Shown: positions 12,172 through 15,248 of the stretch, piece after piece | Layout: each line of letters begins with the position of its first letter | Position numbering within the stretch: position 1 is the stretch's first letter | Assembly: GCA_013032095.1 (NCBI GenBank) | Contig: WQBJ01000002.1 | Span: forward strand, 255,501 to 319,500 | Reading direction: 5' to 3' | DNA: 64,000 nt | Source of the DNA: Ruegeria atlantica | Lineage (GTDB): Bacteria > Pseudomonadota > Alphaproteobacteria > Rhodobacterales > Rhodobacteraceae | The notes under the pieces: model-generated | The model's database searches: none | Told to the model about the DNA's origin: nothing | Seen by the model: only the letters and a program-made list of their open reading frames with translations | Translations under genes and position numbers: made by a program

Positions 12172-13028
12172 GCGCGGCTTTGCTACTGGCCGCGTCGGCC
12201 TGGGCGGTCGAGGTCAAAACGGCCACGCACCTGAGTAGCTATACGTGGCGGCACAGTGCTGACTGGTTTGGCGGGTTTTCGGCCCTGCAGGTCTCGGATA
12301 ACGGCCGTCAAATGGTTGTGCTGAGTGACAGTGCGGTTCTTGCTCGCGCAGTGATCGAACGGGATGGGGACGAAATCACCGCGGTTCGGTTCACCGGCGA
12401 CTGGCCTGTTCTGTCTAGCAAAGGTCGGCCTATGTCGGGCAAAGCGGGGGATTCCGAAGGTATCGCGGTGGCACCGGATGGCAGTTACTATGTCTCATTC
12501 GAAGCTTTGCATCGTGTCGCCAGGTACGCGGCCCCTGACGCCAAAGCAGTTGTATTGCCGCGCCCGGAAGCTTTTGAAAATCTGAGCAACAACGGGTCAT
12601 TGGAAGCGCTGGCAATTGACGACAAGGGGCGATTGTACACCCTGCCCGAGAAAAGCCGGACCGAACAGGGCAAGATTCCCGTCTATCGCTGGGACGGACA
12701 GGCTTGGTCGACACCATTCGTACTACCGCAGCGGGGTAATTTTCTTCCGGTGTCTGCCGATTTCGGACCTGATGGACGATTTTATGTGTTGGAACGCAGC
12801 CTGTCCCTGATTGGTTTTCGTACACGGCTCCGTAGGTGGCAGATCACAGAAGACGGGGCAGGGGTCGAGGAAACACTGTTTGAATCCGGCACCGGAACCC
12901 ATGACAATCTCGAAGGACTGTCCGTCTGGCGCGACGATCAGGGCAGGCTACGGGCCACGATGGTCTCGGATGATAACTTTATGATCCTGCAACGCACCGA
13001 GCTGGTGGAATATCTATTGCCCGATTGA
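12144..13028 (+). CDS. Exported esterase-like activity of phytase family protein
   Basis: This 294-residue protein has a signal peptide (MRLSFAIQLSAALLLAASAWA). The rest reads as a beta-propeller-like protein of the family named after esterase-like activity of phytase: GDSEGIAVAPDGSYYVSFE, SLEALAIDDKGRLYTLPE, SADFGPDGRFYVLERS and DNLEGLSVWRD. The EGI/EGL-x-D repeats bear the likely metal or substrate ligands. It starts inside mepA (28-base overlap) and is probably translationally coupled to it. The substrate is not known; an exported calcium-dependent phosphoesterase is one possibility from the family name only. Confidence 0.75.
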   Translation: MRLSFAIQLSAALLLAASAWAVEVKTATHLSSYTWRHSADWFGGFSALQVSDNGRQMVVLSDSAVLARAVIERDGDEITAVRFTGDWPVLSSKGRPMSGKAGDSEGIAVAPDGSYYVSFEALHRVARYAAPDAKAVVLPRPEAFENLSNNGSLEALAIDDKGRLYTLPEKSRTEQGKIPVYRWDGQAWSTPFVLPQRGNFLPVSADFGPDGRFYVLERSLSLIGFRTRLRRWQITEDGAGVEETLFESGTGTHDNLEGLSVWRDDQGRLRATMVSDDNFMILQRTELVEYLLPD

Positions 13029-13119
13029 CACAAGGCTATCGAGGGTCTAAACGCACGGCTTGCCTTGGGATGAGCCCGGGGCCAAGTCGCCGCTACCTTG
13101 TCAAAACGGGCATCTGAAA

Positions 13120-13764
13120 ATGCAACGCGCTTATATTCCCGGCATTCTTGCCATGGCCGCCATTGTTGTGGCCTCAAACATTCTGGTTCAGTTCCTGATC
13201 TTTGACGGGCTGCTGACCTGGGGTGCCTTCACCTACCCGCTGGCCTTTCTGGTCACCGACATCATGAACCGCGTCTATGGCGTGGCCACTGCCCGCAAGG
13301 TTGTGTTTGCCGGTTTCATCACCGGTATCATCTGCTCGCTGATCGGTAGCCAGATCATGCTGCAGGGTGATGGTTTCACCTATGCCGCCGTTCCGCTGCG
13401 GATCGCCGTCGCGTCGGGCACCGCCTTCCTGATCGCCCAGCTGACCGATGTCACCGTGTTCAATTCGCTGCGCGGTGGCCGCTGGTGGCGCGCACCGCTG
13501 GTCTCGACGCTGGTTGGATCGGCGCTGGATACCGCTCTGTTCTTCACCATCGCATTCTCGGCCTCGGTCACCTTCTTCGGTGCCGATGCAGACGCCGCAA
13601 TCAACTGGGCGTGGGAGCCCGTGCCCTTCATGCTGTCCGGCCCAATGGCTCCGCTGTGGGTCACGCTGGCTTTCGCGGATTGGCTGGTGAAACTGTCGCT
13701 GGCGCTGATCGCGTTGATTCCGTTCAAGGTGATCGTTGCGCGGTTGACCGCTCAGCCTGCGTAA
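13120..13764 (+). CDS. yhhQ: Queuosine precursor transporter (YhhQ/VUT family)
   Basis: This 214-residue membrane protein has about six hydrophobic segments. It carries the YhhQ/VUT hallmark FPLAF/YPLAFLVTDIMNRVYG (here TYPLAFLVTDIMNRVYG) near residues 30-50. YhhQ imports preQ0/preQ1, precursors of queuosine in tRNA anticodons (established in E. coli). The start at 13120 is preferred over an upstream in-frame ATG because MQRAYIPGILAM begins directly with the first membrane segment. No clear preQ1 riboswitch could be recognised in the 90 bases upstream. Confidence 0.88.
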   Translation: MQRAYIPGILAMAAIVVASNILVQFLIFDGLLTWGAFTYPLAFLVTDIMNRVYGVATARKVVFAGFITGIICSLIGSQIMLQGDGFTYAAVPLRIAVASGTAFLIAQLTDVTVFNSLRGGRWWRAPLVSTLVGSALDTALFFTIAFSASVTFFGADADAAINWAWEPVPFMLSGPMAPLWVTLAFADWLVKLSLALIALIPFKVIVARLTAQPA

Positions 13765-13824
13765 AAAAGTGCTTTGAGAATGGCGCATCTTGTGTCAGGC
13801 TCAAAGTTAACCGCAACAGATAGA

Positions 13825-13840
13825 AAAGGAGGTGATCCAG
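13825..13840 (+). promoter_or_regulatory. Hyper-extended Shine-Dalgarno, 16-base perfect complement of the 16S 3' end
   Basis: The sequence AAAGGAGGTGATCCAG is the exact reverse complement of the conserved 16S rRNA tail CTGGATCACCTCCTTT. Ordinary ribosome binding sites in this window pair over 4-6 bases. Its core GGAGG ends 7 bases before the GTG at 13840, which is optimal spacing. A site this long should bind 30S subunits very tightly and may slow clearance of the initiating ribosome. This last point is inference. Confidence 0.8.
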
Positions 13841-13896
13841 TGTCGAGAAAGAGATTGGAGAGAGGTGTCGGAACAACCGGGGGGATCGCCTGTTAG
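13840..13896 (+). CDS. 18-residue mini-ORF with extreme ribosome binding site
   Basis: The frame opens with GTG and encodes VSRKRLERGVGTTGGIAC before TAG. It is supported by the 16-base Shine-Dalgarno at ideal spacing and by a terminator about 70 bases after the stop. The peptide is basic at its N-terminus and ends in Ile-Ala-Cys. The coding sequence is purine-rich with further internal Shine-Dalgarno-like GGAG/GAGG runs. I do not recognise the peptide. Translation may matter more than the product (leader peptide), or the peptide may itself be functional. Conservation at the amino-acid versus RNA level would tell. Confidence 0.45.
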   Translation: MSRKRLERGVGTTGGIAC

Positions 13897-13966
13897 GGCA
13901 GCCCTTGGCGGAGCGCTCGCTCCGGCTGGTCGAAGGATCTAACCGACCCAACCTCCTGAACTTTCG

Positions 13967-14000
13967 AAGGGCCGTCCCACAGGGGCGGCCCTTTTTGTTT
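13967..14000 (+). terminator. Intrinsic terminator upstream of arfB
   Basis: Arms GGGCCGTCCC (13969-13978) and GGGGCGGCCC (13982-13991) form 10 pairs with one G-U and a 3-base loop. Two A-T pairs extend the base of the stem. It is followed by TTTTTGTTT. It lies 28 bases before the arfB ATG, so transcripts from upstream reach arfB only by read-through or from a promoter inside the short gap. Confidence 0.85.
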
Positions 14001-14027
14001 CCACTCACGCCGGTTAAGGTCCCAGCC

Positions 14028-14447
14028 ATGCTGCGCATCACTGATGATATCACCCTGCAGGACTGGGAAATGACCGAGAGCTTTGTCCGCTCGTCCGGTC
14101 CCGGCGGGCAGAATGTCAACAAGGTCTCAACGGCGGTCGAGTTGCGGTTCGAGGCTGCGCGTTCGCCCTCTTTGCCTGATCCCGTCAAGAACCGCTTGAA
14201 ACGGCTGGCAGGGCGGCGGTGGACCAAGGATGGTGCGATCATCATTCAGTGTGAGGAGACCCGATCGCAGGCCCGCAACCGTGAAATCGCCCGCGCCCGC
14301 CTGGCCGATCTGATCTCTCGCGCGCTGGTCAAACCCAAGCGGCGCATTGCGACCAAGCCCACTAATGGCTCGGTCAAACGGCGGCTGGCAGCTAAGAAGG
14401 CGCGGTCGGACGTGAAAGCGCTGCGGGGTAAAGTCTCGGAAGATTGA
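14028..14447 (+). CDS. arfB: Alternative ribosome-rescue aminoacyl-tRNA hydrolase ArfB (YaeJ)
   Basis: This 139-residue protein has the class-I release-factor catalytic loop SSGPGGQNVNKVSTAVELRF (GGQ at 26-28). It lacks a codon-recognition domain and has a long basic C-terminal tail (KPKRRIATKPTNGSVKRRLAAKK) that enters the empty mRNA channel in family members. It releases peptides from ribosomes stalled on non-stop mRNA, as a backup to tmRNA-SmpB. The ATG at 14028 follows a weak AAGGT site, 28 bases after a strong terminator. smpB lies 3.2 kb downstream. Expression may depend on the leader element at 13820-14000. Confidence 0.93.
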   Translation: MLRITDDITLQDWEMTESFVRSSGPGGQNVNKVSTAVELRFEAARSPSLPDPVKNRLKRLAGRRWTKDGAIIIQCEETRSQARNREIARARLADLISRALVKPKRRIATKPTNGSVKRRLAAKKARSDVKALRGKVSED

Positions 14448-14501
14448 TCTGGAAACTTTGTGGGGCCTTGCTACTTTGGTGTCATAGGGGAGAGCAAGAT
14501 C

Positions 14502-15248
14502 ATGAGGTTAGAGGGAAAAACCGCAATCGTGACCGGCGGTGCTTCGGGCTTTGGCGCCGGGATCGTGCAGAAATTCCTATCCGAAGGGGCGCGTGTCATG
14601 ATTGCCGATATCAACGGTGAGGCGGCGGAAGTGCAGGCCAAGCAACTCGGTCCCAACACGCTGGCTCAATTGGTTGATGTTGCAGACGCCTCTTCGGTGC
14701 AAGCGATGGCGAATGTCGCGTTTGAGCGGTTCGGACATCTGGACATTCTGGTCAACAATGCGGGTGTGACGCACCTGCCCACACCACTGGATGAGGTCAC
14801 CGAAGAGGATTTCAACCGGGTCTTCAATGTGAACATGAAATCTGTCTATCTGACGGCAAAGGCGTTTGTCCCCGCCATGAAAGCGCGTGGAGCAGGCGCG
14901 ATCCTGAACGTTGCCTCCACCGCTGGCCTCTCACCGCGTCCAAACCTGAACTGGTACAACGCTTCCAAAGGCTGGATGATCACTGCAACCAAAACCATGG
15001 CTGTCGAACTGGCTCCGTCCGGCGTACGGGTAAACGCGATCTGCCCGGTGGCTGGGGAAACGCCCCTGCTGAAATCTTTCATGGGGGAAGACACGCCCGA
15101 GATGCGCGCCAAGTTCCTCTCAACCATTCCGTTGGGCCGTTTCTCGACCCCCGATGACATGGCCAACGCGGCCCTTTTCCTGTGTTCGGACGAGGCCAGC
15201 ATGATCACCGGCACAGCATTGGAGGTCGACGGTGGCCGTTGCATCTGA
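14502..15248 (+). CDS. SDR family oxidoreductase
   Basis: This 248-residue classical short-chain dehydrogenase has cofactor loop TGGASGFG (11-18), NNAG (85-88), catalytic Ser139, Tyr152 and Lys156 (WYNASKG), and a C-terminal MITGTALEVDGGRCI. The acidic Asp36 (IADING) after beta-2 suggests NAD rather than NADP. It resembles glucose/3-oxoacyl-type reductases, but the substrate cannot be fixed. The start at 14502 follows GGGGAGAG. It stands alone between arfB and a P1 peptidase. Confidence 0.85.
   Translation: MRLEGKTAIVTGGASGFGAGIVQKFLSEGARVMIADINGEAAEVQAKQLGPNTLAQLVDVADASSVQAMANVAFERFGHLDILVNNAGVTHLPTPLDEVTEEDFNRVFNVNMKSVYLTAKAFVPAMKARGAGAILNVASTAGLSPRPNLNWYNASKGWMITATKTMAVELAPSGVRVNAICPVAGETPLLKSFMGEDTPEMRAKFLSTIPLGRFSTPDDMANAALFLCSDEASMITGTALEVDGGRCI

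Follow-up and report, generated by a model that had tools for sequence, protein, structure and literature searches.

An rreR-type small mRNA ahead of arfB in Ruegeria atlantica, with a predicted Shine-Dalgarno lock and an ORF of fixed length

Small mRNAs with extended Shine-Dalgarno sequences

Small mRNAs of the rreR/rreB kind are reported to carry at least 16 nt complementary to the 3' end of 16S rRNA ahead of a small ORF, and to be made as separate small transcripts. The Bradyrhizobiaceae member, rreB, is said to encode 14 residues behind a Shine-Dalgarno (SD) sequence of 17 nt. Its RNA reportedly co-sediments with the 30S subunit, is translated weakly, and is stabilised when a stop codon replaces the start codon. 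The counterpart in the Rhodobacter/Roseobacter lineage, rreR, is said to encode 18 residues from a GTG start. To our knowledge, the published account of these RNAs describes neither a lock between the SD and an internal anti-SD, nor a fixed length of 18 codons with a free C-terminus, nor a link to the Rfam family CC2171. Leader-peptide attenuators form a further described class with a similar layout, as they combine a short ORF, RNA hairpins, and a terminator.

The report of Hahn et al. 2017 (RNA Biol 14:1353) is cited in the available portions of PMC7298713 and PMC7217052. A table in the available portion of PMC7217052 contains two peptides listed as unstructured, SP-1, a 14-residue B. japonicum peptide of 1.6 kDa, and SP-3, an 18-residue D. 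shibae peptide of 1.9 kDa, and the names rreB and rreR are absent there. Bradyrhizobium-type peptides in the present set have 14 residues and a calculated mass of 1.6 kDa, as given for SP-1 in that table. SP-3 is perhaps the rreR peptide; this comparison is loose because the listed 1.9 kDa stands against 1.96 kDa calculated for the peptide of a Dinoroseobacter MAG. In the main text, as available, of sRNA papers on Ruegeria pomeroyi and Paracoccus denitrificans (PMC4809877, PMC5107571) no entry is attributable to the present locus. The accessible portion of PMC5082802 holds nothing on the element, and that of PMC12218461 does not cite Hahn et al. 2017 under the terms used. A literature search on rreR, rreB, and 'ribosome-regulated expression' found no relevant text beyond citing papers, and one on CC2171 as a Caulobacter sRNA found no paper.

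The element considered here lies in a window of 64,000 nt of R. atlantica DNA, the whole stretch analysed, with all features on the forward (+) strand. It is best assigned to rreR, the counterpart of Bradyrhizobium rreB in the Rhodobacter/Roseobacter lineage. The two share an extended SD of 16–17 nt, a GTG start, and a very short ORF of 18 residues (14 in Bradyrhizobium). Complementarity to 16S rRNA is 16 nt and exact at this locus, and of 100 distinct Rhodobacterales ORFs, 90 start with GTG and 96 stop at codon 19. The element falls within a family known from earlier alphaproteobacterial work. The reading preferred here, to which a probability of about 0.58 is assigned, is that rreR is an independent ~190-nt small mRNA, which has a promoter and a terminator to itself, is locked by itself and opened by the 30S subunit, and is not a leader of the arfB gene that follows. 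An initial annotation of the window had recognised the same elements and favoured attenuation of arfB, with an independent dual-function small RNA as its alternative. The elements proved real and conserved, and the attenuation was not supported.

The extended Shine-Dalgarno sequence

The extended SD AAAGGAGGTGATCCAG occupies positions 13825–13840 and, read directly, is an exact 16-nt complement of the 16S 3' end, as the initial annotation had claimed. The 3' end used for comparison, GCGGCTGGATCACCTCCTTTCT, was taken from one genome of the same genus; a search for 16S rRNA in the window's own 272-contig assembly (G000) gave no match. Against this 3' end the match runs for exactly 16 nt and stops at a mismatch one base further upstream. 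The duplex with the 16S tail is predicted at -28.4 kcal/mol which, with an opening cost of 11.8 kcal/mol, leaves a net -16.6 kcal/mol, and the 9-nt core alone has a predicted duplex of -14.0 kcal/mol. Exact AAGGAGGTGATCCA occurs once in the window, where up to three mismatches give 10 matches vs. 4.9 expected. By our own arithmetic, a given 16-mer is expected by chance ~3e-5 times per 64 kb, counting both strands.

The SD core AAGGAGGTG is invariant in all 69 aligned family copies. The five bases after it are ATCCA in 28 copies, GTCCA in 21, and other in 20, counts that describe a deliberately enriched set made up of the 28 top-scoring copies, the window's own, 20 copies among which 19 lacked a match to the 17-mer at up to one mismatch, and 20 picked for GTCCA. 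This set holds one genome copy twice (L203 = L232). The GTCCA variant retains the 16S pair as G-U. In an unenriched family sample the 17-mer, again at up to one mismatch, was found in 147 of 198 genomes, some of the matches being at other sites. Some family members have lost part of the 16S extension, so it cannot be a strict requirement. As a separate observation, GAGGAGGTGATCCAGTG was seen in at least 12 family genomes (e.g. G489:C1:1604765-1604781), 10 of which, in a count made by eye among the matches listed, have another site beside it.

The very strong predicted 16S pairing, together with the co-sedimentation with 30S that is reported for rreB, would also suit an abundant RNA that sequesters free 30S subunits through a 16-bp helix and so lowers initiation globally. 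Such a sponge is distinctly unlikely, as both an exact ORF length and a self-lock would be superfluous for it and the 16S extension varies within the family.

The 18-codon ORF

The ORF is of the rreR type and runs from a GTG start to a TAG stop at 13840–13896, read directly as 18 codons for the peptide VSRKRLERGVGTTGGIAC, again as first annotated and with its stop at the family position. Among the 100 distinct Rhodobacterales ORFs, those without an in-frame stop at codon 19 have their first stop at codon 21 (three) or codon 23 (one). The stop at codon 19 is TGA in 42, TAG in 36, and TAA in 18, and the starts other than GTG are ATG in seven and TTG in three. These 100 are the distinct members of 104 ORFs, 68 of them model-based and taken without a length filter, and 36 from the non-redundant scan set, in which the Rhodobacterales type is defined by fewer than 25 codons; the length definition thus touches 36 of the 104. 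At the model-based loci, 64 of 67 distinct ones have 18 codons and three have 20. The conserved 5' part sets early stops in the other two frames, at codon 4 in 38 ORFs and at codon 2 in 44, and later peaks reach at most 10/100. The length stays constant despite shifts in spacing, which place the start codon 12, 13, or 14 nt after the start of the SD, and also where the whole peptide differs.

Conservation of the peptide is uneven along its length, with a mean pairwise residue identity of 0.65 at positions 2–12 vs. 0.20 at positions 13–18, which are near random. In codons 2–12 the diversities by codon position are 0.22, 0.22, and 0.30. The third positions are just somewhat more variable than the first two, which suggests a constraint on the RNA. 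The fixed stop at codon 19, the use of all three stop codons, and the near-random last six residues imply that selection acts less on the C-terminal peptide than on the translation of 18 codons. As far as the sequences indicate, this combination of a fixed 18-codon length with a drifting C-terminus appears to be new here for the Rhodobacterales.

A gene for a bioactive 18-residue peptide would account for the conserved ORF, start, and stop and for the partial conservation of residues 2–12. It has only the slightest chance of being correct, since a conserved peptide function is disfavoured by the drifting C-terminal residues and by the codon-position diversities, and the 18-residue Dinoroseobacter shibae peptide, perhaps the same one, is listed as unstructured in the available portion of PMC7217052.

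The codon AGA accounts for three of the window's 18 codons vs. a frequency of 1.7 per 1000 across nine ORFs nearby, where it is rare, and AGA at codon 3 is retained in 33 of 35 loci.

Sorting of 162 loci with the 17-mer, including 30 same-genus loci from a search with a 216-nt query, gave three ORF types. The Rhodobacterales type (73 loci) has 18 codons (VSR..LERGVGT...), the Rhizobiales-like type (62 loci) has 21–26 codons in 60 of 62 (VSHCH...TWI.AS...), and the Bradyrhizobium type (10 loci) has 14 codons (VS..KRCHLAGIAR). The 17 other loci may include some chance SDs of ordinary genes. For the non-redundant sets, two of the 162 loci with too little flank were omitted and then near-identical ones, which took the groups from 74 to 36, from 61 to 54, and from 10 to 9 in the same order, with all 15 'other' loci kept. 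At one locus (L152, 3013-3196) the ORF and 3' part diverge from those of its relatives after codon 10, giving 22 codons, which would fit a replacement of the 3' half.

Transcription unit and neighbouring genes

A promoter-like sequence, TTGAGA - 16 nt - CAGGCT, precedes the element at 13774–13801 (TTGAGA at 13774–13779, CAGGCT at 13796–13801), with an RNA start predicted near 13808. Its geometry is conserved: of 36 non-redundant Rhodobacterales loci, 33 have TTG(A/C)-N16-19-NANNNT ahead of the SD, and at each of seven control offsets none does. A general sigma-70 scan of 13000–15200 listed no promoter, the one at 13774–13801 included; this conservation is the basis of the promoter claim. At the other end, terminator prediction places an intrinsic stem-loop followed by a T-rich tail at 13966–13994, and changes on both sides of the stem (helix 4 of the consensus fold described below) agree with it. 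A strong terminator followed by arfB is also what the initial annotation had described. In several same-genus genomes, other contigs carry short matches to the terminator hairpin alone (query ~168 to 213), which marks this terminator as a sequence type that recurs within the genus.

Both neighbours lie outside the element. The upstream one is a queuosine precursor transporter family gene (Vut_1) at 13120–13764 (TIGR00697, 98.0 bits, cut-off 50.95; Pfam Vut_1), and it is found at 63 of 67 distinct family loci, at one of them 1.5 kb away. The downstream one is arfB at 14028–14447, with its ATG at 14028 (NCBIfam NF006718, ArfB equivalog, 190.6 bits, cut-off 100). As the gap between terminator and arfB is ~30 nt, readthrough into arfB is possible in this species. 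A cis-acting attenuator, or a sensor of free 30S subunits or stalling that controls arfB, would fit this terminator between the element and the arfB start, as well as the presence of arfB in the fetched DNA at 59 of the 67 distinct family loci (68 less one copy counted twice, L203 = L232).

Wider comparison speaks against such control. In five of the 59 loci arfB is 738–1695 nt away, and at the remaining eight it is absent, each with at least 1664 nt downstream fetched. In the scan set arfB is found at 39 of 44 Rhodobacterales-type loci, the window's own among the 44 (one of the five without arfB has 240 nt downstream), and at 0 of 88 loci of other types, 64 of which have at least 1500 nt downstream. 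Attenuation of arfB as the general role, which the initial annotation had preferred, was rejected in view of the conserved promoter-like sequence before the element and the absence of arfB from the DNA fetched for 8/67 family and 88/88 other-type loci, and control of arfB in cis is considered very improbable. The same annotation's stalling sensor for arfB likewise gained no support from the comparison of loci. Although rreR resembles leader-peptide attenuators in its short ORF, RNA hairpins, and terminator, it differs from them in that no downstream gene is kept across lineages. The conserved position before arfB that a cis attenuator of this gene would entail is frequent within the family and seen at none of the 88 other-type loci. 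An alignment across the family, which the initial annotation had proposed, finds the ORF and terminator conserved; the 16-base match is invariant just in its core, and arfB is in the fetched DNA at the 59 loci given above. The adjacency in Rhodobacterales is taken as shared gene order and not as the basis of function.

RNA structure

The window's copy of the RNA has a predicted fold of -90.9 kcal/mol (z -4.87), and 0 of 200 shuffles were equally stable. RNAalifold with 36 sequences gave four helices, which are the SD core with the anti-SD, a start-codon hairpin, a short internal helix, and the terminator. The SD:anti-SD helix emerged unasked. In this long-range lock (helix 1), the SD core strand AGGAGGU at 13827–13833 is predicted to pair with an internal anti-SD, ACCUCCU, at 13951–13957, with 97.2% of cells paired in the 36 sequences and 98.9% in 68. 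The start-codon hairpin (helix 2; 13836–13859), also present in the MFE structure, is predicted to pair UCCAGU at 13836–13841 with AUUGGA at 13854–13859, with 97.6% of cells paired (36 sequences) and 92.6% (68).

Across the 36 sequences 96.4% of cells pair, a value that drops to 42–53% when the partner strands are slid, and 0 of 500 shuffles attain any of five measures. With 68 distinct sequences in a model-fitted alignment, one of the five measures is attained by two of 500 shuffles and the remaining four by none. Changes on both sides are found at 6/6 pairs of the terminator (36 sequences) and 3/4 pairs of the short helix. The lock helix shows no double changes because the SD strand never varies, and its support consists of one-sided changes; variation in the partner strand is nearly all pair-keeping (GC to GU 29, UA to UG 11).

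A trans-acting anti-SD would show the same one-sided changes. The corresponding reading is a base-pairing sRNA whose CCUCC segment before the terminator pairs with SD regions of target mRNAs, the mini-ORF serving either to control the sRNA or as a further function. In favour of this reading, nearly all aligned copies retain A/G-C/U-CUCC near the 3' end as their anti-SD strand, and Rfam classes the related CC2171 as an sRNA. The reading is nevertheless rather unlikely, given that in the consensus fold the CCUCC segment is paired to the RNA's own SD, that the best SD complement sits elsewhere in other lineages, and that the 18-codon ORF is clearly under selection.

A stretch inside the ORF, GGAUCGCCU at 13883–13891, complements the SD region over a longer run than the anti-SD does, in the window and several close relatives. 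The predicted window fold uses the anti-SD and not this stretch.

Accessibility of the SD core was compared in all groups but the 15 'other' loci, each sequence being set against 12 versions in which the SD box was kept and the part downstream of it shuffled. Rhodobacterales SD cores had a pairing of 0.78 vs. 0.56 with shuffled downstream parts (p 6e-9, n=36) and an opening cost of 11.6 vs. 6.7 kcal/mol. In Bradyrhizobium the pairing was 0.73 vs. 0.64 (p 0.004, n=9). Rhizobiales-type SD cores paired less than their shuffles (0.55 vs. 0.62, p 0.044, n=54) and were cheaper to open (5.9 vs. 7.4, p 2e-5). These results make the lock a feature of Rhodobacterales, and perhaps of Bradyrhizobium also. 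All four groups hold a downstream stretch complementary to the SD beyond shuffles; a class-wide self-lock, an idea that came from the complementarity scans, failed in the Rhizobiales-type accessibility test. According to the fold models, the Rhodobacterales SD core has a possible pairing partner in a conserved anti-SD within the RNA, and the start codon lies in a predicted hairpin; both are new here.

Proposed function

At the level of sequence, comparison finds the promoter-like sequence, SD core, predicted start hairpin, ORF length, anti-SD complement, and terminator conserved. Self-locking, opening by 30S, and the passage of a ribosome as the functional event are what we infer for rreR as a stand-alone small mRNA. 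The free RNA would be self-locked, with its SD core on the internal anti-SD. Binding of the RNA by 30S is expected from its complementarity, and a free 30S subunit would open the lock because the 16S pairing, predicted at ~-28 kcal/mol, outweighs the SD opening cost of ~12 kcal/mol. The ribosome would then translate 18 codons and terminate ahead of the 3' structure, and its presence and passage, rather than the peptide, would set the structure, stability, and activity of the RNA.

A more specific proposal is put forward tentatively, at odds well below even. It holds that the RNA mimics the 16S 3' end as its lock, that 30S competes with this lock, and that a run of exactly 18 codons, the C-terminal ones being of no account in their sequence, turns ribosome availability into RNA stability or activity, which would make rreR a stand-alone gauge of free 30S. 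If this is true, nearly all Rhodobacteraceae genomes would retain such a gauge. Through the comparison, an odd SD becomes a source of testable predictions.

Relationship to CC2171

The Rfam family CC2171 (RF01867) matched the window at 33.1 bits (E 1.8e-5) over model positions 1–159 of 159, below its cut-off of 75. No known Rfam family reached its cut-off in the window, the suhB/mmgR sRNA (RF00519) scoring 18.1 bits against a cut-off of 41, and no tRNA or tmRNA was found there. The Caulobacter sRNA CC2171 and the element are alike in the conserved AAGGAGGUGAUCCAGUGUC box at the 5' end, which the alignment places in the window, in the terminator, and in their similar length. They differ in the long-range helix, as the closing stem CAUUGUC:GACAAUG of CC2171 is absent in the window, where SD:anti-SD takes this place. 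In the aligned Rhizobiales type (46 of 54 non-redundant loci), 38–44 loci pair at each of the seven positions of CAUUGUC:GACAAUG.

CC2171 scored above its cut-off in six of 10 loci, the window's own copy among the 10, and in seven of 17 in a second set, the Rhodobacterales and Bradyrhizobium loci among the 17 falling short. Loci above the cut-off that have both the box and the mini-ORF come from Methylobacterium, Bosea, Brevundimonas, Microvirga, and others. In 14 control genomes the model matched in Caulobacter vibrioides alone, and in 289 class genomes it matched 61 at E ≤0.001, nine of these above the cut-off. The above-cut-off scores at loci with box and mini-ORF support, from sequence, the view that CC2171 is an rreB-like gene and the same kind of element as rreR in other orders. 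The small mRNA rreB/rreR and the Rfam sRNA CC2171, two records known to us only apart, would thus be joined.

Distribution

A 216-nt query covering 13790–14005 was matched over its whole length or almost so (query from 1 or 19–20 to 211 or beyond, of 216) in 51 of the 54 genomes of the genus, the window's own included. Two of the remaining genomes have no match and one matches just at the terminator. The search tally for the same query at E ≤0.001 is 57 of 101 genomes. A covariance model, R1, built from the 36 Rhodobacterales sequences, detected the element at E ≤0.001 in 136 of the 149 family genomes. In 124 the match lies below 1e-10, and the 12 weaker ones may in part be chance or terminators alone. 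From this family search 28 of 30 loci were carried on, the window's own copy (L193) and the same-genus L201 being omitted. A chance origin is ruled out by the counts in the genus and the family.

The 19-mer AAGGAGGTGATCCAGTGTC occurs in at least 119 stretches in named genomes. Among the 80 named matches listed, 78 are alphaproteobacterial or labelled Proteobacteria/Pseudomonadota and two are Gammaproteobacteria. In a phylum sample the 19-mer was found in 31 of 398 genomes, all 31 in the window's own class. The exact 17-mer AAGGAGGTGATCCAGTG was found in 13 of 289 class genomes, and the element is far from universal within the class.

A gammaproteobacterial branch was considered and dropped, as the 17-mer was found in one of 194 genomes of the order of locus L120, namely L120's own. 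At L091 and L120 (SAR92 cluster, Cellvibrionales), AAGGAGGTGATCCAGTGTC is followed within ~45 nt by a GGGAGCC/GGCTCCC-TTTT terminator, upstream of which CACTGG could pair with CCAGTG. These two loci possibly represent a much shorter extended-SD RNA outside the Alphaproteobacteria.
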